Source: Verrucomicrobiota bacterium
GTDB taxonomy: Bacteria > Verrucomicrobiota > Verrucomicrobiia > Opitutales > UBA2995
DNA length: 39,058 bases
Direction: 5' to 3'
NCBI GenBank assembly: GCA_027622555.1
Contig: JAQBYJ010000052.1
Coordinates: forward strand, 1-39,058
Part shown: positions 3,001-38,751 of the stretch, piece by piece
How positions within the stretch are numbered: position 1 is the first letter of the stretch
Layout: each line of letters begins with the position of its first letter
Made by a program: the position numbers and the translations under genes
Notes under the pieces: generated by a model
What the model was told of the DNA's origin: nothing
What the model saw: the letters and a program-made list of their open reading frames with translations, nothing else
Databases searched by the model: none

Positions 3001-6000
3001 GTGTTACCCGATCTGGGTGATGATTCGGGACCGGACGATCTCTCCGAATACCGGCATTTGAGCTTCTTGCAGGTCGAAGACGTCCCCCATCTATTTTTTG
3101 TTAGGAGGAATCTCGTTTTCACAACGCGGTATGAAAATAACGCATGGACCGAACCAGAGATAGTAGGCGCCGGAACGAATCCTGTGCCTGTCTATTCGCC
3201 GACACTCTACGATGGGGGCCCTGCGATTATAGTACTCCATGAGAGGGCGGGACGGAATTTGAGTAGCGATATAGATGTTCCCGTGGACCCTAATGATGTT
3301 CAACTGCTGGTTGCCTTGAGTCTTCCAGATGGAGAGGGTGGTTGGATTCGCCATGAGCCGGTTGAGTATGCATTCAGCGACGATGCTGCTTTTAGTAGCT
3401 TTGACTCAGTGCTTACAGCTGATGGCGAGCCCATCGTGTTGTGGACCGGCGGTGATGTAGCTAATCAGGAGGACGATACGGATTTGTATTACCGAACCGG
3501 TCCTTTGGAATCTGATCTTCTCGGCGAACCTCTTCAATTAGTGTCGAACGTATCAGATCCGCCTCCGCAAGCTAAGTTGAACGAGACCATAGAGTTCTAT
3601 TTACCTGAACCTGCGTTCTTTGATGAGAACGGCCAACAGCTTCCTATTTGGGAACCACTCGCCTCTGCTGATGACGCTGCGTGTAAATTTTTCAACGAAG
3701 CAATTGAATTGGGGTTTGAGTTCAAAAAGAGTAGTTCGAAAAGTCAGGCGAAGTGGCTCACTCGAAAATTCGGAACTCATTCGTTTTTGCTTAAGGGTGT
3801 GGTCGAAGGTGAAGCGAATCTAAAAGAAGCAAAAGTTGCTGCTGGAGTGGATGTGGCTGTTGGGTTTTTCAGTGATGCGCTAGATGCATTAGATCGAAGC
3901 CCCAACGAGCAACTGAATGAGGCCGAAAAGAAAAAGGTTGGTGGCTCAGGCAAGGGCCTAACGGTTGCTGGAAAAGCACGAATTGGCGGTGTTTGGACGA
4001 CCAATCCTAAAACGTGTGAATATGAGTTCGACAAGTTAACGGCTTCGTTAGGCTTGGCGATTCAAGCGAGAATAGCTCTTCCAAATTTGACCGTCTACGC
4101 TCCGCCATTGGCTGAGATTTATGTGGGTATTGCAATAGATGGTGTCTTTGGTGGAGAATTTGAATGGGCAACACCACAAATACTTCCTACGGATGGCAAA
4201 GTTACCCTTGCGGGCGGCATTGGCGGATACTTCACTGGCAAAGCTTTAGGTGACTTTGTGGAAATTTCCGGATCTCTCACAGGAAACATCGCCGTAGGTT
4301 ATGATAGTGCCATTGATCCAAAGACTAAAAATCCAGCTGGATTTGGATTACAGGACCTATCAATCAATGGTTCTTTGGGAGCAAAAGTAGGATGGTGGAC
4401 TCGAGTTTATTCGGTTAAGTATGATATAAGAAGTGGGGCACTAACGGTTAAGCGAAGTGATGGAGTGACCCCTGAGTTTGAAGATGGTGCCTTCGTTACC
4501 TATCATGCAGACGGAAATAGTCTCACACGGACAATCATTACCCCTGATGGATGGCAAATTGAAGAAACAGTCACACTTACAGCCAAGCCTGGTACGAATG
4601 CAGATTACAGTGCTTCTGGTATTAGTTCGCTCCTTGCGGATGTAATGAACGATTTCGAAGACGAAAGTAGACCAGCTCTCATCACTATGTCATCGGGTGA
4701 GACATACGCTTTCTGGATACGGGAGAAAGCAGTTTCCGGATCAGATCTTACCAATGATATTCTTATGTCTGAATTTGTCGATGATGCCTGGACGGCTCCG
4801 ATGGTTTTGCCTACCACAGGTGCTAATCGAGAAGTAAGGGCTGTGGAGGATTCGAATGGGCAGTTGCTTCTGGTATTTGCGCATGCTGACATGACGGGAT
4901 TTGACGCTAACTCTGATGTATCGGAGGCGATGGCTGCTTATGAAGACGCAGATCTTTGCTATATTCGGAAAACGGATACAGGTTGGACTACTCAGCAGCA
5001 ATTGGGCTCCATACCAGGCACCGCGAACAGGTTGAAAGTACACCGATTGCCCAATGGCGATGTTTTCACAACGTGGGTTGAAAGCAATTTGAAAGAGGGG
5101 CTGCTTCATGTCCAAATGTGGGATTCGGCCAATTTATTTTGGTTGCCATCCAAGAAACTAACCAAAGCGCCGGTTGCTTCAAATGCTGCACTGAGTTCGG
5201 TTGGGGAAGTTCCTATGGCCATATGGTCTGAGTTTTCAATGTTGGATGGCGCAGTCGGTCCAGAGGAACGCATTGAGGAACTCACTTACTCGACGCTGAC
5301 GAACGGAAATTGGAGTATCCCAACGGCTTTGAATGTGTCATTCTTTACGCCGGTTGATGACAATGCTACGAATAGTGTGATTCAACCTATCGCTGAACAG
5401 AGTTACGATTTTCCCGAATCTGAGAATCAATCGTTTTCAGATATCTTCAATCTGAATAAGCAAATCGAGCTGGATATGGAATGTTGCAAGGTCCTTGAAG
5501 AACAAGGGACCGATGGTATACCTGATGCCAGAGTACCGAAAGTTGCCGTCGATGACGCGCGAGAGCGCAAACGAAAGAAGGTTAGTACAACTGGGTCCAA
5601 TGACCCGAACGACAAGTTTGGTCTGAGTTCCTTTGGACAGGAAGGTTGGATCGAAGCAAATCAAGTGATTCCCTATACAATTCGTTTTGAGAACGATCCT
5701 GAAGAGGGAGCTACGGCAGCAGCCCAACGTGTGACAATCACCGACACACTCGATCCAGATTACGATTTTGATACATTTGTTTTCCGTGAGTTTGGGTGGG
5801 CTGATGTTTCGAAGTCCGTTCCGGCGAATACGCAGAATTTCCAGATAGATGTGGACTATCAGAATTCGGATGGTTCTCCGCTCATTGTGCGCGTAACGGG
5901 TGCTTTTGATCGAAACACTGGAGACATAACCATCATATTCGATTCCATAGATCCGGCGACAGGAATAACACCATTCGGGGCCTTTGATGGATTTCTTCAG

Positions 6001-6693
6001 GTTGAAGACGAGAGTGGAAATGGTCAGGGATTTGTCCGTTACGACGTTAAGCAGAAGCCTGATCTTCCGCAAGGTACGAAATTCGAGAATATTGCTGATA
6101 TTATCTTTGATTTGAACGAATCCATCCTCACCCCTGAGGTGGTGCACACAATCGATCTGGAAAAGCCAACGAGCTCTGCCAGCAGCCCGGCGGTCTCACA
6201 ATCGGCTTCTTTCCCGATCATCCTAACTGGTTCAGATCCAGGAGGCTCAGGCGTGGAATACTGGACCATTTACCAGTCAATTGATGGAGGTCCTTTCTTC
6301 CTATGGCGGGGAGCGGTAGATGTACCTAATCCAGTCTTTACCGGAACGTCCGGTCGAAGCTACTCGTTTTATAGTATAGCTACGGATGGAGCCGGTCTAC
6401 GTGAAGATAAAGATCCTTTGGTTGAAACAACTACGATAGTCGCCGACTCGGGAATTCGGGTTGAGTTGATGGAGAAGCTGACGAACGATACCGTTAGAAT
6501 TATTCTATTAACCCCTGAAGGATTAGGTGCAGAAATTCGTGCTGAAACTACAGACTTGACCGGTTTACTCGTTTGGCACGACATTCCTGAAATCACAGTC
6601 ACCGAATTGGGTGAAAATCGTTATGAAATCATTGCACCATTTACAGAAGATTCTCGACAGTTCTATCGTTTGATTGCAGGGGATGGTCAATAA
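91..6693 (+). CDS. Giant secreted multidomain protein (beta-helix, CARDB-like, DUF11/DPNDK modules), 5' end uncertain
   Basis: A 2200-residue frame with no transmembrane segment and no signal peptide. Domains as I read them: right-handed beta-helix about 30-350, with the GGDTNGDG and PGDWNGI loop typical of secreted PVC proteins; CARDB-like beta-sandwich about 400-505; pre-peptidase-like 508-610; IPT/TIG-like 611-700; carboxypeptidase-regulatory-like fold 892-975; two propeller-like stretches about 980-1157 and 1524-1747; a glycine-rich beta region 1289-1454; a DUF11-type module beginning with the DPNDK motif at residue 1838 and ending near 2020; an Ig-like module 2026-2117; and a terminal domain ending FYRLI. 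It is probably an extracellular adhesion or scaffold protein; no catalytic residues are recognised. The GTG start at 91 has no clear ribosome site. The frame is open back to a TGA at 25-27, so the true N-terminus with its export signal was probably lost by frameshift or lies outside the window. Confidence 0.85.
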   Translation: MGDNVPNNITRLLGGGTKHPTVLGHTPIVVVKTTAGSAVLGGSITVLPGTIIKMPLSSSGFYREWLDGNGHFILNGEPGNPIIFTSELDDTIGGDTNGDGNETSPAPGDWNGIRVLNPKTQFNNVEIRFAGSIGSGVINGVGYASLYINMGEESELKSFTGLHIHDAKGDALVLRDPQNWDISNSLIYDFENQGIYSYGDRTGGATLRNVTIHGGKTSISPAYAHYALVNSVLAGATESLIKKSNNNIETESLISRNNVFHGPNASLGLFYSEDGFKEITLADSVGDLIVDPMFVDAGGDNFNPDTDSPLVDAANGSLADGLDFNGFPRFDDPAVTDTGVGNPSYADIGAIEQLGSSDPTLNPDLTVDGSSITFITTSGKFFSLSELLADPLYSPNQSVKVEYKVTNEGASAALGNWVDSLYFSRNRSWEIGDSLAGSSARPSTLAPGASYTHSIVTFIPPLVDGSYHLIIRTDDRGEQLEYQNANNTGTSSNAFDLEVQSRAVTEIASLTFAAGQRTSQLFRIDASTEIGNDICVEVSATGPKARIELLAQVDGIPTVFENAAKADGLPGETATVQVPITGKGMVYILITVDDPGPEPNNVSVVTSVKPFSITELLPSQVGNNGPVTIVVKGAAFQKGDRVSIRHVDGDPVIDTTRTIFRNSGCLTAAFSFQDEKLGNYDVIVSRTDDSVVLVSGVTLIQGAPVDDALLPTISLNTPDVIRLTPLVPFKIEVSLTNPHGQDIPVLLNFASEFADFQPGGLYSTSPVREGRNSLFLIPSSETGTPGMIATGETIVTTVYYLGIERNNPGDIIIQDLAAIAVNGERSNISNVNEDSIYHDEFLDIIGNTIAENHRAASDEAARLAELGVVETDLEFLLQNIYDRHVTGFGSNSIGGVVQDSAGQPIGNATVRVVSTDSEEGRSYEGTTNSKGEFLTEGLPGDEYVVVTDGYGSSPNTVVVHGGQVSDNNTFVLPDLGDDSGPDDLSEYRHLSFLQVEDVPHLFFVRRNLVFTTRYENNAWTEPEIVGAGTNPVPVYSPTLYDGGPAIIVLHERAGRNLSSDIDVPVDPNDVQLLVALSLPDGEGGWIRHEPVEYAFSDDAAFSSFDSVLTADGEPIVLWTGGDVANQEDDTDLYYRTGPLESDLLGEPLQLVSNVSDPPPQAKLNETIEFYLPEPAFFDENGQQLPIWEPLASADDAACKFFNEAIELGFEFKKSSSKSQAKWLTRKFGTHSFLLKGVVEGEANLKEAKVAAGVDVAVGFFSDALDALDRSPNEQLNEAEKKKVGGSGKGLTVAGKARIGGVWTTNPKTCEYEFDKLTASLGLAIQARIALPNLTVYAPPLAEIYVGIAIDGVFGGEFEWATPQILPTDGKVTLAGGIGGYFTGKALGDFVEISGSLTGNIAVGYDSAIDPKTKNPAGFGLQDLSINGSLGAKVGWWTRVYSVKYDIRSGALTVKRSDGVTPEFEDGAFVTYHADGNSLTRTIITPDGWQIEETVTLTAKPGTNADYSASGISSLLADVMNDFEDESRPALITMSSGETYAFWIREKAVSGSDLTNDILMSEFVDDAWTAPMVLPTTGANREVRAVEDSNGQLLLVFAHADMTGFDANSDVSEAMAAYEDADLCYIRKTDTGWTTQQQLGSIPGTANRLKVHRLPNGDVFTTWVESNLKEGLLHVQMWDSANLFWLPSKKLTKAPVASNAALSSVGEVPMAIWSEFSMLDGAVGPEERIEELTYSTLTNGNWSIPTALNVSFFTPVDDNATNSVIQPIAEQSYDFPESENQSFSDIFNLNKQIELDMECCKVLEEQGTDGIPDARVPKVAVDDARERKRKKVSTTGSNDPNDKFGLSSFGQEGWIEANQVIPYTIRFENDPEEGATAAAQRVTITDTLDPDYDFDTFVFREFGWADVSKSVPANTQNFQIDVDYQNSDGSPLIVRVTGAFDRNTGDITIIFDSIDPATGITPFGAFDGFLQVEDESGNGQGFVRYDVKQKPDLPQGTKFENIADIIFDLNESILTPEVVHTIDLEKPTSSASSPAVSQSASFPIILTGSDPGGSGVEYWTIYQSIDGGPFFLWRGAVDVPNPVFTGTSGRSYSFYSIATDGAGLREDKDPLVETTTIVADSGIRVELMEKLTNDTVRIILLTPEGLGAEIRAETTDLTGLLVWHDIPEITVTELGENRYEIIAPFTEDSRQFYRLIAGDGQ

Positions 6694-25356: not shown

Positions 25357-28163
25357 TCAATTATTGGAATGCAGACGATAGGCAACCATCATTGGTTTTC
25401 CAGCATAGACCTCCTCAGTAGAGTGAGTAAATGTGAGATGTGAGAAGCCTTCATCGGAATCGTATCTGCAGTTGGGCCCGGATAGCTTTTGATTAACTGA
25501 TACCAGGATAGTGGCATCCTCGGTCGAATGATTGGGATCGGTAACTGTTAACGTAAATCCTTCATCCGTTTCCCTGAGCATGACCAGAGCCGGTCGATTC
25601 ACGGACAATTGTATGGGAGTATCGGAGGTGGATGGAATGGCAATTTCACCAACTTCGTAGAATGCCACTTGAGAGATGTTCAGGGCTCTTTGTTGAACCG
25701 CCATCAGCTTTTCATCGTTCCGCAAAATAGCGATGGATCGATTCTCACCCAAACCATCCACATACTGTTCCACCTCTTCAGGAGTAGTATTTGGGAGAAC
25801 CATGTAACGATAGCTATCCCTTTGAGGAGTTGCTCCATGGTTTATAGCCAGCTGAAAAATCCTTTTACCCTTGGCTCTCGACTCGGCGGACAAACGAATA
25901 TTCACCGAATCATTCCCGGGTAGAATGACATAACCCACACTATCGTGAAAAAGTAGATTGGTTTTTTTATACCATACAAATCCAGGGTCTCGCCGATTCC
26001 TTTTGACGAAATGGTCATCGAGTTGCCTCCATCAACTTGATACTGAATATCACCTTTCCAGGCTATCTGGTTGAGGGTGGTCCATATCTCCCGATTGTCA
26101 CCCGGTCGCACGCGGCGAATGTTATTTCCCAAGGCAACAATTTCGTTTTCGAAAAAGAAGTAGCCTTTGTTGGCATTCACGGTGGAATAGTTCACCGAGT
26201 CATCGGAGTGATTTCGCTCATATTCGAAGGCCCCAAAGCCAAAGCGACCGTCGGAAACTACTCCGGCAAAGGTATTGGTTCCGCCCGCCCCACGAAAGGG
26301 AGAATCTGCGGCTAAAGGTAAAGCGTCGAGGCGTTGTTCCGCCGTGGTACCCGGGATGGCGTGCCAGTTGTATACATCGGAAAGCCCATTGTAATCGTCA
26401 TCATTCATCCGCACAAAAAGAGCGCCATCACCCAGATAGTAATAGGACCTTCGATCAACTCCCCGCTCAAGACCTCGCGAACGCGTCGAAATCATCTTGG
26501 CCGATGCAAAAAAATCCGGCCGACGATGAACCAGGTAGTCGATATTCCAGAAGGGCTGGTTCAGCGTCAGCTCGTCAACAAAGTGATTGTTTTCGAGTAT
26601 GGTTTTGAACTCCCTGAGTTCGTCTTCGCGGGAAATAACTGTATCGTTTGATTTGGCGGCCAGCAGTCCGGATGCTGCCAAAAGTAGGTTTCTTCCCCAC
26701 TTGCTCCGGTCGGGAAGCAGGCCTCCTACCGACATGTCGAGGTAGCCATTAAAGGTCAGGGGGCGGTAGGCGTCCAGGATTCGGTCGGCGATGGTGTTAT
26801 ACATGGCATCGCTGGCCTTGTAGCGGGTGTTTCTCAGGAAGTGAGCCATGGGAATGCTGTTTTCCACCAACCACTCCCACCCATAGGCATCGGCTGTAAA
26901 CTGGAGACCTACCCGTGGATGATGACATATGGTTCCGTCCGGGAAGAACCCGTTCCGATTGTCGTAGGTATCCATAAACACAAAGCCAGTTTCGATAAGT
27001 TTCATCACATCCCCAAGCGCTCCGTTTGGATAGTAGCCGGGAATACGGGGATCCACGGTATCGTACCACACGTCCTGATCGGTCAACGCCCGATTGTAGT
27101 CATGGGAAATAACCACCCTCGTGATCAGGGAGCGCATACGATGGTTTCGGTTGGCATTGCCAATAGCCGGACGCTCATACATCCGTTCGGCCCACATCAC
27201 ATCACAGACATCCAGAATGGCGTCGTAGACCTCGATAGCTTTTTGCCGGATTGAGTCCTCATCGCTCCTCATCTCCTCGCGGAGCAGGCGGAAGAACCGG
27301 ATGCCAATGCCGGCGATGAAATCGGAGTTACGCCATACATGCGTTTCAGCCCAGTCGGTCCTGTATTTTGCATTCTGTTCGGCATTTCGAATAATTCCCT
27401 TATAAAGCTGATCCTTGAGGTTTTCGTTTTTAAAATTAGCTGAATCCTTCCGGAGATAGGCGGTGGCAAGCTTGAGTAAACGCTCGGCGGATGCGCAGGT
27501 ATTTTCCCATCCGCGCTTTTCCATTCCCAGCGGTAAATCCCTGAAAGTGCCATCAGAGTTCATTTGATCCAGGATGGTTTTGATCTCATCATCTGTCTCC
27601 GAACTCGAGAGTCGTCGGTGTTGCGAAAACTCCCTTTCTTTCAGAGCAAGAAACGCGTCTGCAAGAGTCTGTTTAACCCGATGGATGCGATACTCCTGTT
27701 CATCGGAGGTGCCATCGGTAAACGTGGCCTTCACGCGCAGGGTGTAGTCAAGCTGTGTCAGTTTATCGGTAGCCACCTTGATGACTCCAAAGTGCTTTCC
27801 CCGAGAATTGACAAATGTCTCGATTGTGAATCGATCGCGTCCGGTTCCACCGACAATAACAAACTGGGCTTTTTCAAATGAGTTGTTCGCAAGATTTACC
27901 CGACCGACTACCTCCTCGCCAACTGCCGCACCTTCGAGGACTTCAAAAAAACTATCCGTAGCGCCAAGAAGGCTGTTCTTGGGCACAGCTGGATGAATTT
28001 TTCCAATCTGCTCCAGCTTGGGCAAACGCCCAGGATCCGAGTCGCTTTTTATGTTTAAACCGTACCCGCGATTGATGCTTTGCCCACCAACGTTCGAGAT
28101 GGCTACCAAGGTGAAGGCCGTCGTAATACACAAGATGGTCCGAATCATATTAATGCTGCACAT
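25357..28163 (-). CDS. Polysaccharide lyase family 8-like enzyme, split by a -1 frameshift
   Basis: Two overlapping frames form one enzyme: the upstream frame (about 750 residues, stop at 25902-25904) and a downstream frame to 25357. The N-terminus has a signal peptide (MIRTILCITTAFTLVAIS; ATG at 28163 or 28148) and a cadherin-like beta-sandwich (FFEVLEGAAVGEEVVGRVN ... YTLRVKATFTDGTS). The catalytic alpha-toroid follows, with NANRNHRMRS and GFFPDGTICHHPRV...YGWEWL, which line up with the Asn, His and Tyr region of PL8 hyaluronate/chondroitin/xanthan lyases; then the beta-domain with YNWHAIPGTT and FRGAGGTN. At A7 (25962-25968) the frame must step back one base to continue as LFHDSVGYVILPG, the typical central-to-C-terminal PL8 join. 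Substrate is probably a uronate-containing glycan. One missing or extra A explains the split; programmed -1 shifting at A-AAA-AAA is possible. Confidence 0.85.
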
Positions 28164-28276
28164 TCTTCTATGCAGCTTACCAATAGGCAACCAAGCTTAA
28201 CAGAATTTTATTGAAGGTTACTTCTTAAATATAAACCACTAGAAACTAGATTTTCTGAATACAAACACAACTGGTC

Positions 28277-29137: not shown

Positions 29138-29908
29138 TTATTCCGGTTTGATGTTCTGGTTAACTCGGAAAAAGTTTTGAGAATCGTACTTTGCCTTGAT
29201 GGCTCCCAAACGGGAGTGATTAGCTCCATAAGTTGCCTGAATGCGCTCATCCCCTTCTTCCATGAGAAAGTTTATGTAGGTTCCTTCACAGGAATAGGGA
29301 TGAGTAGCTTCCCAATAATTTTTTGCCCAAGCCTTGACGGACTCTGCCTTAGCCGGATCGGAATCGACTCCGCCAATGACCATTGACCAAGTGGCATCAC
29401 GACGGCTCCAGGCCGTACCTTCAGATGCCACGCGATGAACAGCTGCATTTATGGGATATAAATGCATGACGCATAATTCACTGGGTGATCTGGCAGCTTG
29501 CTCAATGTGGGCTTCAATCGCCTCGTCAGAAAGCTCCCGAACAAAGTCGCCTTTCAAATACCACTGGAGACCTTTGATATAAATGGGATCAAACATGCTC
29601 TGCAGAACTGGCAGGGGTATTGTATCGATCACTTCAAAGAGCGGTTCAGGTAACTCGGTAACCATGGGAGCAATTGCTTTTGGTCCATCCTCTACCGGGC
29701 CGCTGTAGCAGGGTATTAACGCACAAACCTGGCGCCCCCAAAGCTCCTCCGGAAATGGTTCAGCAGATACAATCGACTTGAACCCAAAAAACACGTTTAG
29801 CTCCTCAGGTGCATCTTGAATAAAGTCGCGATACCACTGCATGATTTCCCGAGCGTGCTCGACCTCATACATTTTAAAACCGCCGTAGATATTTTTAACG
29901 GGATGCCC
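29138..29908 (-). pseudogene. C-terminal half of an FAD-linked (berberine-bridge type) oxidoreductase
   Basis: The 244 residues from the ATG at 29872 correspond to the substrate-binding and BBE C-terminal part of the FAD-binding PCMH/BBE oxidoreductase family; YDSQNFFRVNQNIKP at the end is the classic BBE tail and YPINAAVHRVASEGTAWSRRDATW is typical upstream. Family members are about 450 residues, and the N-terminal FAD-binding half with the covalent His is absent. The same frame is open for twelve more codons upstream (HPVKNIYGGFK), still matching the family, until a TGA at 29911-29909. There a different gene (the EF-hand fragment) begins on the opposite strand, so this is a rearrangement joint and not a start site. 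Without the FAD domain the product cannot be a normal oxidoreductase. Confidence 0.85.
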
Positions 29909-31048: not shown

Positions 31049-33820
31049 ATGAATTTTAGACGATATCTTTTTCTTTGGGTAACTATAAGCTGTAGCGGGT
31101 TTCTGACTACCCTTCTTTCGGGAGCGCAACCCAACATCATCCTGGTGCTGACCGATGACCTCGGTTACGGGGACCTGAGTTGTTACGCTTCGCAATTTAT
31201 TGAAACGCCGCACATCGACAAAATGGCGGCACAGGGCGTCCGATCTGATCAGTACAGAGTGGCAGCGAATATTTGCACACCTTCCCGTATCGCACTCCTT
31301 ACCGGTTCTTATCCTCAACGGGCAGGTCTCTCAACCGGAATCAGCCCAACCAGACCGGAACACCAACATCTGGGATTGCACCCCAACGAAATTACCATCC
31401 CCGAGTTGCTCAAAAACCGTGGCTACGCAACCGGCATGGTGGGAAAATGGCACCTTGGTTTCGACGAAGTGTTCCATCCGCTCAATCACGGATTCGATAG
31501 TTATTATGGCATGCCTTCAAACTTCGCCCATGATCCGCGATCCTTTAAAGACAAAGAGGAGATAGCAAAGACCACCGACCTTTCGATGCTGGTAACGGAC
31601 TACACACGCAAAGCAGTCGCATTTATAAAGAACAACCAACACCAGCCTTTCTTTTTATACCTCGCCCACAATTATCCTCACGTACCGCTAAAACCAAATC
31701 CGGCCTATGTAGGTAAATCGAAGGCAGGTGACTATGGCGATATCATCCAGGAACTGGATGACAGCATGGGTACTTTGATGGATACGCTGGCGGAACTAAA
31801 GATCACAGAGAATACGCTTATCATTTTCACCAGCGACAACGGACCTCTGCCCAAGTATGCCAAGGAGATCGGGTCCGCAGGCTCCTTTCGCGGAAGCAAA
31901 TATGTCACTTTCGAAGGAGGACACCGGGTCCCGGCAATTTTTCATTGGCCCGCCCATGTACCAAGCGGACGACTGCTGAGTGTTCCCATAAGCTCGATGG
32001 ATATCCTTCCAACGATCGCAGGCATCGTGGGTACACAACTGTCCGACGACCGCAAACTGGATGGCAAAAATATCTGGCCCCTATTGGTGGGTGAAACCAC
32101 AGAACCTCCGAGAGAGATGGATTATTATTACAACGACAGAAACCTGCAAGCCGTTCGCAAGGGTGATTGGAAAATGCATCTGCCACGAACTTTGGATGAT
32201 TTACCCTTCTGGCACGCGAATGGAGAAAAGGAATTCAAAGAACTCTCAGAACCCTTTCTAGTGAACCTGAAAACCGATGTCGGCGAATCCACCAATGTTG
32301 CTTCCGAAAACCCACAAGTGGTAAGCCAAATCCTTTCCGAAGCAACTGCAGCCCGACGGGAATTGGGAAGTTCGAAAACAACCGGAAATGCGCAACGGGA
32401 AACAGCCGACTCAAGGGACCTCGCAATTGAAACTCGCACTTCATCAAAGCCGCCTAACATCATCCTCATTTTTGCCGACGACCAAGGCTACCAGGATATT
32501 GGCCGCTTTGGTTCTCCCAACATAAAAACCCCCAACCTTGATCGTATGGCCGATGAGGGAATGCGGTTTACAGATTTTTATGCGCAGACCGTTTGCGGAC
32601 CCTCCCGAGCGGCGTTGATGACGGGGAGTTATCCGCTTCGCGTAGCCACCAAAGGAAACCGGGTCGATGTTCATCCATACTTGCACACCGAAGAGATCAC
32701 CATTGCGGAGGTTTTAAAAGAAGTGGGTTACACCACCGCCGCCTTTGGAAAATGGGATCTGGCGGGTCATACTCAAGACCCCAATCGCTACGCCCCAGAA
32801 CTCCTTCCCCTCCATCAAGGTTTCGACTATTTCTTCGGCACCTCGACGAGCAATGACAGTAAGGTGCACCTAATACGTAATGATACCGTGATTGAGCAAG
32901 ATACAGACATGAGTCAGCTAACCCGCCGCTATACCGATGAAGCAATTGGCTTTATCAAGCGGAGTAAGAACCGTCCTTTCTTTGTCTATCTCCCGCACAC
33001 CATGCCCCATATTCGACTAGAAAGATCCGAGCCGTTTAAAGACAAATCAAGAGGAGGGATCTACGGTGATGTTATCGAGGAAATCGACTGGAACGTTGGC
33101 CGTATTTTCGAGACCTTAAAAGAAGAAGGTCTCAATGAGTCCACTTATGTTTTCTACATGAGCGATAATGGGCCGTGGTATTTGGGTCGCAGTAAAGGTC
33201 ATCTCGATCGAATCGGACCGGACGCTGAGGCTCATGGTGGGTCCGCCCTCCCACTCCGTGGTGCCAAGACCTCCACCTGGGAAGGTGGGCTTCGAGTACC
33301 GTGCATCATGTGGGCACCTGGCAAGATTCCAGCCGAATCCGTAAGTGAGGAACTCGCTTCGACCATGGACATGCTTCCCACCATCGCGAAGCTGGCAGGT
33401 GGACAGGTTCCGCAAGACCGAGTCATCGATGGTCATGACATCAGCGACCTCATCCATGGAGTGCAAGGCGCCACCAGTCCGCGGGAAGCATTCTATTATT
33501 ACGTTCGCACTCAACTTCGAGCTGTTCGTTCCGGTCCTTGGAAACTGCATCTACCGTTAAAGTCCGATCAGTTCTGGGCACGCTACAGCAAACCGGAAGA
33601 CGTGATCGATATCTCAAAGCCGCTGCTGTATAATTTAGAATCTGACATAAGCGAAACAATCGACGTCTCGGTTCAACATCCGACTGTAGTCAAAGATCTA
33701 CTACAACTCGCTGAACAGGCCCGCAACGACATCGGTGACATCGACCGTATTGGTATCAACGCTCGCTTCTTCGACGACGAGCCGAGAAGGCCGGATATCG
33801 CTACTAGAACAAAAGAGTAA
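31049..33820 (+). CDS. Fused tandem double sulfatase
   Basis: One 923-residue exported protein contains two complete sulfatase (S1, alkaline-phosphatase-fold) domains. A signal peptide covers about residues 1-26. Domain one (about 27-435) has the metal site LTDDLGYGD, the formylglycine motif Cys76-T-P-S-R80, GKWHLG (Lys133, His135) and FTSDNGP. A charged linker of about 30 residues leads to domain two (about 467-905) with FADDQGYQD, Cys516-G-P-S-R520, MSDNGPW and the TWEGGLRVP motif. Domain two has GKWDL instead of GKWHLG, so Asp570 stands where His is normal. Both Cys motifs suit oxidation to formylglycine by a sulfatase-modifying enzyme, which is not encoded here. It probably removes sulfate esters from glycans in the periplasm. 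The pyrimidine-dimer glycosylase gene starts at its stop codon (TAATG). Confidence 0.93.
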   Translation: MNFRRYLFLWVTISCSGFLTTLLSGAQPNIILVLTDDLGYGDLSCYASQFIETPHIDKMAAQGVRSDQYRVAANICTPSRIALLTGSYPQRAGLSTGISPTRPEHQHLGLHPNEITIPELLKNRGYATGMVGKWHLGFDEVFHPLNHGFDSYYGMPSNFAHDPRSFKDKEEIAKTTDLSMLVTDYTRKAVAFIKNNQHQPFFLYLAHNYPHVPLKPNPAYVGKSKAGDYGDIIQELDDSMGTLMDTLAELKITENTLIIFTSDNGPLPKYAKEIGSAGSFRGSKYVTFEGGHRVPAIFHWPAHVPSGRLLSVPISSMDILPTIAGIVGTQLSDDRKLDGKNIWPLLVGETTEPPREMDYYYNDRNLQAVRKGDWKMHLPRTLDDLPFWHANGEKEFKELSEPFLVNLKTDVGESTNVASENPQVVSQILSEATAARRELGSSKTTGNAQRETADSRDLAIETRTSSKPPNIILIFADDQGYQDIGRFGSPNIKTPNLDRMADEGMRFTDFYAQTVCGPSRAALMTGSYPLRVATKGNRVDVHPYLHTEEITIAEVLKEVGYTTAAFGKWDLAGHTQDPNRYAPELLPLHQGFDYFFGTSTSNDSKVHLIRNDTVIEQDTDMSQLTRRYTDEAIGFIKRSKNRPFFVYLPHTMPHIRLERSEPFKDKSRGGIYGDVIEEIDWNVGRIFETLKEEGLNESTYVFYMSDNGPWYLGRSKGHLDRIGPDAEAHGGSALPLRGAKTSTWEGGLRVPCIMWAPGKIPAESVSEELASTMDMLPTIAKLAGGQVPQDRVIDGHDISDLIHGVQGATSPREAFYYYVRTQLRAVRSGPWKLHLPLKSDQFWARYSKPEDVIDISKPLLYNLESDISETIDVSVQHPTVVKDLLQLAEQARNDIGDIDRIGINARFFDDEPRRPDIATRTKE

Positions 33821-34790: not shown

Positions 34791-35263
34791 GTGACTTATT
34801 ATCCTAAAGCCTCCCTCCTAATCTTCATTGGGGCTTTCGCCCTAAACGGACTCTCCCAAGAAATTTCAGCCAACCGGGCCAGAGCTCGGGAAATAGGTGT
34901 TCAAGTCGTTAAGAAGCCGACCGGAAAATGGAACGCGATCACCGATGTACCGGGAGTTGAGGTCGGCCATACGACCATCCATCGGGGCAAGGAGATTCAC
35001 ACGGGAGTTACTGTGGTCTTGCCGCATGACGGCAACATTTTTCAGCAGAAGGTGCCCGCGGCGATCGTGGTCGGAGAAACCAATGACGGTTACCTGAACG
35101 ATATCCGCGATTTCCGTACTAGAGAAGAACAGGTGGTCGCTACAATTTGCTATTTATGGCTACAACCGTTCATGGTATGAATGGAATGGCCCCTGCAATC
35201 AACCTGGATGCCGTTCAGGCGTCGCTTCGAAAACACAATCTTCTGTTGAGTCCCGTGCGATAA
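34791..35263 (+). pseudogene. P1-family (DmpA-type) peptidase, internally deleted
   Basis: The first 129-residue frame has a signal peptide and the N-terminal part of the DmpA/L-aminopeptidase-D-esterase family (RAREIGVQVVKKPTGKWNAITDVPGVEVGHTTI, VRTGVT-like GVTVVLPHDGNIF, VPAAIVVGE). Near 35135-35160 the sequence jumps to another frame that reads YNLLFMATTVHGMNGMAPAINL...LRKHNLL, which is the C-terminal end of the same family (normally ATTVxGxNG and a final helix), ending at 35263. About 200 to 230 residues are missing, including the auto-cleavage site with the nucleophilic Ser, and the joint is out of frame. The gene is dead. It points toward the D-amino-acid oxidase gene in the same direction. 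Confidence 0.85.
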
Positions 35264-36457: not shown

Positions 36458-37147
36458 ATGGCGCTTAAACTTATTGGAGCAGGACTTGGTCGCACAGGAA
36501 CCGGGTCGCTGAAATTAGCCCTGGAACAACTTGGCCTTGGCCGGTGCTACCACATGACCGAGATTATGCATAATCCGGAATACATACCGAATTGGATTGA
36601 TGCAGCTGATGGCAATCCTGACTGGGAAACGATTTACAAAGACTACGGAGCAACCGTCGATTATCCAGGATGCACCTTTTACAAGGAACTTGCCGATCAT
36701 TACCCCGACGCGAAAGTTCTCCTCACAGTGCGAGACGCAAATAAGTGGTTTGAGTCCACCAACGAAACAATTTTATCGCCCAAGGTTTCAGATTTTATCC
36801 GCAACAGTCCGTGGGGACATATGATTCAAAAGACAATTTGGAATACCTTGGACAATCGCATGCAGGACAGAGATTTCATGGTCTCTTACTACAAGAATAG
36901 GAATCAGGAAGTCATCGATTCGTTTCCACCCGAGCGCCTTCTGGTTTACGAAGTCAAAGAAGGTTGGGCTCCATTGTGCGAGTTTCTTGAAGTCCCTATA
37001 CCAGACACAGATTTTCCGAGAATAAACAGTCGGGAGGAAACGAAGGAACTGTTTGCTCAATTAATAGCTGCTCAAGAATTAAGCGAAGAAGGCATGGCTA
37101 AAGTAGCCGAAATGCTCCACGGCGACAGTTTAAAAGGGGAACCGTAA
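36458..37147 (+). CDS. Sulfotransferase family protein
   Basis: A 229-residue protein of the sulfotransferase PF17784 (Sulfotransfer_4) group. The phosphate-binding loop is GLGRTGTGSLKLALEQL near the N-terminus; the second PAPS-related region is KVLLTVRDANKWFES, and the C-terminal part is KEGWAPLCEFLEVPIPDTDFPRIN, all typical. A good Shine-Dalgarno (AAAGG) is seven bases before the ATG. Members transfer sulfate from PAPS to small molecules or glycans; the acceptor is unknown. Cytoplasmic, no signal peptide. It is immediately followed, 80 bases on, by a sulfatase gene on the same strand, so one gene adds and one removes sulfate, possibly on unrelated substrates. Confidence 0.9.
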   Translation: MALKLIGAGLGRTGTGSLKLALEQLGLGRCYHMTEIMHNPEYIPNWIDAADGNPDWETIYKDYGATVDYPGCTFYKELADHYPDAKVLLTVRDANKWFESTNETILSPKVSDFIRNSPWGHMIQKTIWNTLDNRMQDRDFMVSYYKNRNQEVIDSFPPERLLVYEVKEGWAPLCEFLEVPIPDTDFPRINSREETKELFAQLIAAQELSEEGMAKVAEMLHGDSLKGEP

Positions 37148-37227
37148 GGATGCCATAAACCTTTCGTTACTGAATAGTTTCGGCAGACGCTCATAAAGGG
37201 AATTAAAAAGTTTATGCACTAACCCAA

Positions 37228-38751
37228 ATGCAATTCGCTTCACTTCGAATTTTCCAGCTAGTCCTATTTATTATAGGACACCTATTACCTGCGTCAGGGG
37301 TCGAAGAAGTACGTCCCAATGTTCTCTTCATTGCCATTGATGACCTGAACGATTGGGTCGGTTTTATGGGCGGATATCCTGGGACGGTACATACACCGCA
37401 CATGGATCGATTGGCCGCGAGAGGTACCGCATTCCTAAATGCACACACAGCCTCCCCGGTTTGCTGTCCGAGTCGAGCTGCTGCAATGAGTGGTCAACTG
37501 CCATCCACTTCGGGCATCTATCACAACAAACACTGGTGGAAACCGAACCGGCCCGATCTGGTTACGATACCTGGACACTTCAAATCTCAGGGATACACCA
37601 CCGCCGGAGCTGGAAAAATATTTCATCATACGTCCGGCAACAACCCGCCTCAAAACTGGGATGACTTCCAACCCCTGGCCTTTCTCGACAACGCCTTTGC
37701 CTACGAGAATCTGGAACAATATGGTTTGACCGAGAAAACAGAGCTACCCTCCGGTTTCCCGTTTTCCGGCGTTTCCCTCTACTCCAAAGAAGTTGATTGG
37801 GGAAGTTTTTCCAAACCGGAAAGCGAATTTGATGATGCGCGCGCGGCACAATACTGCGTGGATTTTCTAAGTAAAAAACAGGACAAACCCTTTTTCCTGG
37901 CCTGTGGCATTTTCCGTCCACACATGCCCTGGTATTTTCCTAAAAAGTATCTGGAACTATATCCGCTGGACGAGGTGTTCGTACCCGAAGATTTACCAGA
38001 GGATTTGGATGACGTCCCAGAAGCTGGTAAGAAACTGGGGCTTCGCAAGTATATGGATATGAAGAAAACCAGAGACGCCGGAAATTGGCCCACCGCCATC
38101 CAGCATTACCTGGCCAGCATCAGTTTTGCTGACGCACAAATCGGGAAATTACTCGATGCCCTGGACGCCAGTCCCTATGCAAAGAATACTGTTGTGGTGC
38201 TATGGTCAGATCATGGTTGGCACCTTGGCGAAAAACAACATTGGCATAAACGCACCCTCTGGGAAGAAGGCACTCGTATTCCGATGATTGTCGTTTCGCC
38301 AAAATTAGGTAAACCCGGGCAAACCTCAATTCAGCCTGCCAGCACTCTGGACCTCTTCCCCACCCTCATTGAACTTTGCGAGCTTGAAGAAATCCCCAAG
38401 CAGAAACTCGACGGCATCAGCCTGGTTCCGTGGCTGAAGTCACCGAATCAAACCCGAAGCCAAGCCGCCATCACCATCGACGAAAACCAGCACATGTCCG
38501 CGCGAAGCGAACGGCACCGCTATATCCGTTACAACGATGGCACGGAGGAATTTTATGACCATCAATCGGATCCCAATGAATGGACCAACCAAATTAATAA
38601 TAAACGCTACGCCACCGCTATCAAACAACTGCGCGCCCAGCTCCCAACCTCAGTAGCCCCACCCGCCCGTCTCTGGAACGAATTCGATTTCAATCCAGAT
38701 ACCTACTCCTGGGTGGATAAAGAATCTGGCCAAATAATTTCCGGTCGCTAA
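37228..38751 (+). CDS. Iduronate-2-sulfatase-like sulfatase
   Basis: A 507-residue exported S1 sulfatase. A signal peptide (about 1-24) precedes NVLFIAIDDLNDWVG, the metal-binding start typical of iduronate-2-sulfatase-like enzymes. The formylglycine motif is Cys79-C-P-S-R83; GKIFHH, with the lysine and histidine, replaces the usual GKWHLG and is also characteristic of this subgroup, as is LWSDHGWHLGEKQHWHKRTLWEEGTRIPM. Later DLFPTLIEL and KLDGISLVPWL close the domain. It is expected to desulfate uronic-acid- or sugar-containing glycans in the periplasm after activation by a formylglycine-generating enzyme. Length is normal and no damage is seen. Confidence 0.93.
   Translation: MQFASLRIFQLVLFIIGHLLPASGVEEVRPNVLFIAIDDLNDWVGFMGGYPGTVHTPHMDRLAARGTAFLNAHTASPVCCPSRAAAMSGQLPSTSGIYHNKHWWKPNRPDLVTIPGHFKSQGYTTAGAGKIFHHTSGNNPPQNWDDFQPLAFLDNAFAYENLEQYGLTEKTELPSGFPFSGVSLYSKEVDWGSFSKPESEFDDARAAQYCVDFLSKKQDKPFFLACGIFRPHMPWYFPKKYLELYPLDEVFVPEDLPEDLDDVPEAGKKLGLRKYMDMKKTRDAGNWPTAIQHYLASISFADAQIGKLLDALDASPYAKNTVVVLWSDHGWHLGEKQHWHKRTLWEEGTRIPMIVVSPKLGKPGQTSIQPASTLDLFPTLIELCELEEIPKQKLDGISLVPWLKSPNQTRSQAAITIDENQHMSARSERHRYIRYNDGTEEFYDHQSDPNEWTNQINNKRYATAIKQLRAQLPTSVAPPARLWNEFDFNPDTYSWVDKESGQIISGR

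Follow-up and report, generated by a model that had tools for sequence, protein, structure and literature searches.

A gene with two sulfatase domains has been described for Planctomycetes P1 and P2 from Porphyra and ascribed to the fusion of adjacent unrelated genes (Kim et al. 2016, PMC4807772; here and below statements on published work refer to selected passages of the papers cited). Among the papers listed on two-domain, tandem and bifunctional sulfatases there was no case beyond this one. In ordinary sulfatases elimination of the bound sulfate is assigned to the His of the GKWH motif (His115 of AtsA), which is conserved in 81% of 4058 sequences (PMC5066984). Fucoidan 3-O-sulfatase SWF4 of subfamily S1_25 has Gly at this site, as does its whole subfamily, and is active (PMC6315715). 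Thus, activity despite the loss of this residue is already known, for Gly, and its replacement does not by itself imply a dead enzyme. Here we describe a gene of 923 codons found in a 39,058-nucleotide stretch of DNA from a Verrucomicrobiota bacterium (contig JAQBYJ010000052.1 of assembly GCA_027622555.1; hereafter the window). Judging by its sequence, it quite probably encodes a single exported chain that combines two functional formylglycine sulfatases of family S1 and originates from the fusion of different and probably once neighbouring genes, and in its second module the elimination His is replaced by Asp.

Organization of the double sulfatase gene

The open reading frame (ORF) runs from ATG to TAA without internal stops, and Pfam recognizes in its product two stretches of PF00884 and two of Sulfatase_C (E-value of the whole protein 3.3e-119). 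Chance was ruled out because of the Pfam E-values together with the conservation across relatives. The motif script located D36/D37, C76-T-P-S-R80, K133/H135, H211, D263/N264 and K284 in the first (N) half and D477/D478, C516-G-P-S-R520, K568/D570, H654, D706/N707 and K740 in the second (C) half. Each half, therefore, has a PF00884 domain, a formylglycine motif of the C/S-x-P/A-S/X-R type (PMC10154612), the Asp-Asp and Asp-Asn calcium ligands, the GKW Lys, the acid His and the second Lys, while the base His of GKWH is absent from the second half, where Asp570 stands instead. The halves are 37% identical to each other. The NCBIfam matches of the halves are far under their cut-offs.

The N-terminus resembles a Sec-type signal, which judging by eye would end between LSGA and QPN, and the low-confidence model of the full-length protein has a helix at residues 4–23 of this putative signal. 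The second module has no signal peptide of its own and is preceded by the C-terminal tail of the first one. This tail (GSxxxxGxxQRxxxDSRxLA), also present in a lone N-type gene (L115), makes up most of the junction, so that only about 10 residues are extra. In the closest stand-alone relative of the C half (L118) a hydrophobic leader lies immediately before the same ...AKPPNF start; the second half therefore lacks just that leader. All this bears out the first-pass annotation of the locus, which had read it as two complete sulfatases in one polypeptide served by one signal peptide, had placed Cys76, Cys516 and Asp570 correctly and had noted intact metal-site residues in both halves.

The AlphaFold model of the C half (20-row alignment) has a pLDDT (predicted local distance difference test) of 90.3. 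Its best structural match is human arylsulfatase A (entry 1e3c; Z 44.5, root-mean-square deviation 2.1, 407 aligned in VIA-align), and comparison with human arylsulfatase A 1auk, GALNS 4fdi and steryl sulfatase 1p49 gave Z of 42.6–43.9. The 50 structural matches listed are sulfatases, arylsulfatase A being the first. By sequence the C half is best matched by steryl sulfatase, GALNS and arylsulfatase A, with iduronate-2-sulfatase the last of 60 listed; the same three enzymes are the nearest solved structures for the N half, the fold of which was assigned from sequence while that of the C half was modelled too. Asp570 aligns without gaps on the GKWH His of human steryl sulfatase; in L118 the equivalent Asp coincides with the GKWH His of human arylsulfatase A.

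Table 1. Positions of the double sulfatase gene and its elements in the window
Feature	Positions	Strand	Basis or remark
Double S1 sulfatase gene	31049..33820	+	923 aa; coordinates include the stop codon
Putative Sec signal peptide, residues 1-26 (MNFRR...LSGA)	31049..31126	+	Translation inspected by eye
N half (residues 27-439), the first module, of GKWH type	31127..32365	+	PF00884; trees
CTPSR formylglycine motif, Cys76	31274..31288	+	Motif script
GKWHLG, Lys133 and base His135	31442..31459	+	Motif script, alignment
Junction, residues 440-467	32366..32449	+	Alignment with fused relatives and lone N gene L115
C half (residues 468-923), the second module, of GKWD type	32450..33817	+	PF00884; AlphaFold model
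CGPSR formylglycine motif, Cys516	32594..32608	+	Motif script, alignment
GKWDLAGH: Lys568, Asp570 replacing the base His, His574	32747..32770	+	Motif script, alignment

Fused and separate relatives

The same fusion, which the first-pass annotation proposed to look for elsewhere, was found in six more genomes, i.e. in seven including the genome of the window (G000; loci, genomes and families are designated by L, G and f numbers). Its further representatives are L116, L117 (the same gene as L059), L019, L020, L021 and L123 (the same as L022), the last of which is truncated at the 5′ end and has a different C module. Five of them (L019, L020, L021, L022 and L059) were registered among the best 80 loci of a contig scan with one genome per species; the genome search added G001 (L002, L116) and placed the genes of L059 and L022 in G322 (L117) and G002 (L123). 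Across the order, 4 of 372 genomes searched have the fusion (G000, G001, G002 and G322), and the fused genomes span at least two families, f1 and f13. Pieces from G004, G005 and G007 end at contig ends and were counted neither as fused nor as separate, and large open-frame lengths at L163, L193 and L197–L200 were not single ORFs. In its own genome the window ORF is the only frame longer than 712 codons among the PF00884 matches listed. Identity of the five full-length fused relatives to the window is 80–85% for the C half and 63–71% for the N half.

For phylogenetic analysis 270 segments were reduced to 208 by removing duplicates, contained pieces and those shorter than 180 aa; 56 rows were used for the C-half tree, 28 for the N-half tree, 46 for the joint tree and 184, each longer than 330 aa, for the residue alignment. 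The N half of L123 was too short for the joint tree, and three rows of the junction alignment were disregarded, L024C as a wrong ORF and L104N and L106N because they had been matched to the wrong half. In the N-half tree, built by the careful method, all seven fused rows fall inside one clade of ten with support 100/99; the other three are L124 and L119, cut by contig ends, and L115, a complete lone N gene. In the joint tree, built by the quick method, the N half is placed among stand-alone genes of the N type (19 rows, support 96) and the C half among those of the C type (23 rows, support 98). Since the halves group separately, each with its own stand-alone type, two different subfamilies were joined.

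The lone gene L115 (genome G235, frame of 483 codons) is sister to the fused L021 with support 100/99. Four upstream sulfatase genes follow there in the same order as at L021, being 79, 84, 81 and 73% identical, the N half is 80% identical, and beyond it the two loci share a cyclophilin gene (69%) with another two genes after it (69 and 89%), while the C half of L021 and the sulfatase gene following it have no counterpart at L115. At L115 about 35 bases lie between the end of the cyclophilin gene and the stop of the N gene, and no remnant of a C half was found when it was looked for after this stop. Because the lone N gene is nested in the fused clade, shares its neighbourhood and has its C half gone, it represents a derived loss. 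G235 retains a different C-type gene about 14 kb off, 58% identical. The stand-alone C gene L118 (G006), 81% identical, branches just outside the six fused C halves (support 95) with open forks nearby, and the C side alone therefore permits a later loss of the N half.

A likely precursor state of the fusion is represented by L163 (G610, family f30 of the same class), where an N-type gene (3740–5209) and a C-type GKWD gene (5222–6691) follow each other in the same frame and order with one stop in between; the pair is distant from the window, with 44% and 55% identity. At L203 (G517) an N-type gene overlaps a downstream GKWDLS gene, the starts of both being called mechanically, and N-type and C-type genes share clusters at L029 (where the C-type is GKWH), L138, L193, L201 and L202. 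In family f30, 145 genomes were searched and 27 had a match at the cut-off; the fusion was absent from the inspected loci, matches without a locus being partly inspected. Genomes with N-type hits nearly always have C-type hits as well (12 of 13, C-type being present in 17 of 372, with the GKWH variety in G007); this co-occurrence was kept out of the proof because it is confounded by sulfatase number.

In the three pairs formed by L019, L020 and L021 the ratio of nonsynonymous to synonymous substitution rates (dN/dS) is 0.083–0.084 for the N half, 0.073–0.084 for the C half and 0.19–0.26 for the short linker, so that both halves are under purifying selection in the measurable pairs; the N halves of all 12 other pairs were saturated and gave no value. 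The DNA identity of L020 and L021 is 65–74% up to about codon 360 and 83–94% beyond, and this jump indicates recombination, at least one of the two genes being a mosaic. In L123 the switch coincides with the module boundary: its N half is 76% identical to that of the window and groups with it (99/94), while its C half is 58% identical and belongs to another Asp-type subclade (support 100). The bin of this contig consists of 850 contigs (75% complete, 5% contamination) and has a second N-half piece (L124; 93.6% identity across 125 residues), which leaves some small chance that L123 reflects a mixture of strains or a chimera.

Asp570 and the activity of the second module

In the C-half tree (quick method) the second module belongs to a clade of 33 rows (support 97), of which 31 have Asp at the position of residue 570 and two, L029 and L034, have His; four more GKWD rows (L057, L062, L080 and L090) form a separate group (support 91), and the fewest changes at this position on the tree are two. 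Asp-type modules also exist as stand-alone genes in records labelled Verrucomicrobia, Planctomycetota and others, and the genome of the window has two further GKWD modules of the GKWDVS kind, as counted by a search pattern that misses some codons. Among the 184 aligned S1 modules, gathered by similarity to the window and representing its kin rather than S1 at large, this residue is His in 142, Asp in 35, Asn in 4, Gly in 2 and Gln in 1. All 35 Asp-type rows keep the GKW Lys, the acid His, Asp-Asn and the second Lys, and all 33 with data keep Asp-Asp. At the formylglycine position 33 of the 34 rows with data have Cys and one has Ser; the latter is a GKWD-type sulfatase at L090, 1–1212 (+). Judging by these alignments, Asp is normal in the subfamily of the second module and is not a sign of decay. 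It is therefore a subfamily of the kind that the first-pass annotation had named as sufficient to remove its concern over activity.

The SulfAtlas pattern for the His site, [HLGN], gives the residues exceeding 1% (PMC5066984); given this, its 81% conservation and the active Gly enzyme, the base His is usual but not defining. As H, L, G and N are the only residues above this level, Asp accounts for less than 1% there. According to a 2023 review the S subsite is invariant across S1 (PMC10154612), while the authors of the SWF4 study consider the role of this His ambiguous and cite an N-sulfamidase as also lacking it (PMC6315715). Asp at this site was not met in the passages of the sulfatase literature consulted, whose coverage is incomplete. 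A second His of the same segment, His574, is shared by all core Asp-type rows (31 of 31) and by L057 and is absent from the GKWD[V/I/M]S sequences L062, L080, L090, L146 and L148. The C clade also includes two GKWH rows, of which L029 has its equivalent and L034 has Pro. His574 might be a relocated base, but this is no more than a lead.

Four other explanations were weighed, two of which concern the origin of the gene. That a recent loss of a stop codon or an assembly artefact joined two genes could be suspected from the in-frame pair one stop apart in the distant family (L163); this explanation is hardly credible, since the junction is open in all seven fused genomes and the separate state arose secondarily inside the clade of fused genes, and it was rejected. 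Close relatives with separate genes and a stop codon at the linker, regarded by the first-pass annotation as a sign of stop loss, were not found: G235 is a loss, and the G610 pair is distant. The same very low probability can be assigned to the origin of both halves from tandem duplication of one gene: it agrees with both being S1 sulfatases and with their 37% identity, but it is unsupported by the 46-row joint tree, where they group with different stand-alone types.

The other two explanations concern the function of the second module. It is quite improbable that this module has no catalytic activity and helps the first one by binding its substrate or stabilizing it. Such a role would be in line with Asp in place of the elimination base and with the loss of the C half in G235, where no replacement is in place; yet Asp-type sequences keep the other catalytic residues and occur as stand-alone genes, conservation in the five full-length fused relatives is higher for the C half than for the N half (L123 showing the reverse), and activity is known for an S1_25 enzyme that has Gly there (PMC6315715). 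Degeneration of the second half, likewise, is unsupported in view of the retained catalytic residues, low dN/dS and the active Gly enzyme, and the loss of activity suspected by the first-pass annotation thus found no confirmation. Somewhat less improbable, though still unlikely, is an active second module with altered chemistry or substrate class within the alkaline phosphatase superfamily, for example acting on a sulfamate or a phosphoryl ester. An S-subsite residue is indeed changed across a whole clade, an N-sulfamidase model also lacks this His (PMC6315715) and promiscuity is known in the superfamily (PMC12421950); the retained formylglycine motif and the sulfatases heading the structural matches argue against it.

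Most likely, as far as can be judged from sequence, both sites work, and they do so on two sulfates of one glycan. The anaerobic-type maturase anSME would convert Cys76 and Cys516 to formylglycine before export, the Sec route would carry the whole chain, each site would take off a differently placed sulfate of the same glycan, and tethering would keep these successive steps close to each other. The second module may use Asp570 to take the formylglycine proton and release the bound sulfate, a step usually given to His; alternatively, release may proceed without a base at this position, as may hold for the S1_25 Gly enzyme. Tentatively, and with more doubt than confidence, one can assume for the Asp-type clade as a whole that Asp has permanently replaced His as the base, perhaps with the aid of His574, with activity kept, and that Asp-type and N-type partners act on two sulfates of one glycan, being repeatedly neighbours, at least once fused, and later provided with another second head (L123).

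Several observations weigh against two cooperating sulfatases. The full-length AlphaFold model (11-row alignment) is poor (pLDDT 57.5, predicted template modelling score 0.45) and was left out of the geometry; as L115 demonstrates, an N gene can do without the C half; the N-half dS is near 1.8, close to saturation, in two of the three usable pairs; and the immediate neighbours of the gene are not sulfatases, another single sulfatase gene lying 3.4 kb downstream.

Genomic context and comparison with known systems

The genome of the window has a clear anSME gene (TIGR03942, 524.8 bits at a cut-off of 349.45) and two low FGE-family matches (31.1 and 22 bits) marked as over the 23.3-bit cut-off, the second only together with its neighbours. 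Most of its sulfatases may therefore rely on the anaerobic-type maturase. They are numerous, with at least 151 PF00884 matches (150 scored candidates of 335), and the substrates of such enzymes are mostly unassigned. A kept fusion names two enzymes that probably act together, and thereby restricts the candidate substrates to glycans bearing sulfates of two kinds. The Asp-type clade offers a natural acidic variant for judging the role of the elimination His.

Fused loci L020, L021 and L117 sit inside sulfatase clusters. No glycoside hydrolase was found among the five neighbours scanned at fused loci (one each at L020, L116 and L117, two at L021), and an ABC permease gene was confirmed by Pfam at L115 only. 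Unfused N-type and C-type genes cluster with GH116- and GH43-type genes (G350, G091) and with a GH29-type gene (G091). There are hints, which do not settle the matter, that the substrate is a fucose-containing sulfated glycan, and the context fits the breakdown of a sulfated polysaccharide, perhaps one with fucose, of the kind known from marine Verrucomicrobiota (PMC8857213). In the window a PL8 lyase gene lies 2.9 kb from the fusion gene and looks frameshifted; because of this distance and the apparent frameshift a chondroitin-like substrate cannot be firmly deduced. The lyase gene (25357–28190, –) consists of two overlapping ORFs, one with Lyase_8_N and Lyase_8 and the other with Lyase_8_C; this looks like a frameshift, possibly a sequencing error. 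Other window genes include an ORF at 29138–29872 (–), possibly a remnant, with a BBE C-terminal domain only (berberine-bridge-type oxidase) and no FAD-binding match; a short ORF at 34791–35180 (+), a probable remnant covering the first 46 of 307 positions of Peptidase_S58; and, in the region 36458–38751 (+), a sulfotransferase-domain gene (PF17784) directly ahead of another single sulfatase gene.

Related modules also occur in other combinations. At L162 (4666–7146, +) a C-type sulfatase, 56% identical to the C half of the window, is fused to a GHL15 (hypothetical glycosyl hydrolase) domain, and at L194 (1917–5024, +) and L195 (4809–7616, –) GKWDLS sulfatases follow about 500–600 N-terminal residues that are blank in Pfam at 1e-5. 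The ORF at L164 (6236–9859, –; 1208 aa) from the same class resembles the window gene in having two sulfatase modules, one of them 51% identical to the N half; it differs in that the N-type module is second, both are GKWH with CxPSR, and about 190 residues separate them. Fusions of a sulfatase to a glycosidase, such as the S1_25 module of the GH78 rhamnosidase (6hr5) and the Kiritimatiellales fusions to GH29, GH10 and GH32 (PMC6388578), are unlike the window gene, where the partner is a second sulfatase.

Human arylsulfatase A, GALNS and steryl sulfatase share with the modules described here the fold, the formylglycine motif, the calcium ligands, the acid His and the Lys, but they are single-module enzymes and have His where the second module has Asp. 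SWF4 lost the same elimination His (called HisA there) and is active (PMC6315715); it differs in having Gly rather than Asp and in being a single enzyme. The gene of Kim et al. (PMC4807772) is alike in combining two sulfatase domains in one gene. By its description, however, it joins a 5′ ArsA-like domain to a 3′ domain of iduronate-2-sulfatase/choline-sulfatase type, a pattern that the window gene does not follow, both of its halves being near steryl sulfatase, arylsulfatase A and GALNS and the second being Asp-type. Compared with the 2016 precedent, what is new here is a different pair of sulfatases, its maintenance in a clade and an Asp-type second module.

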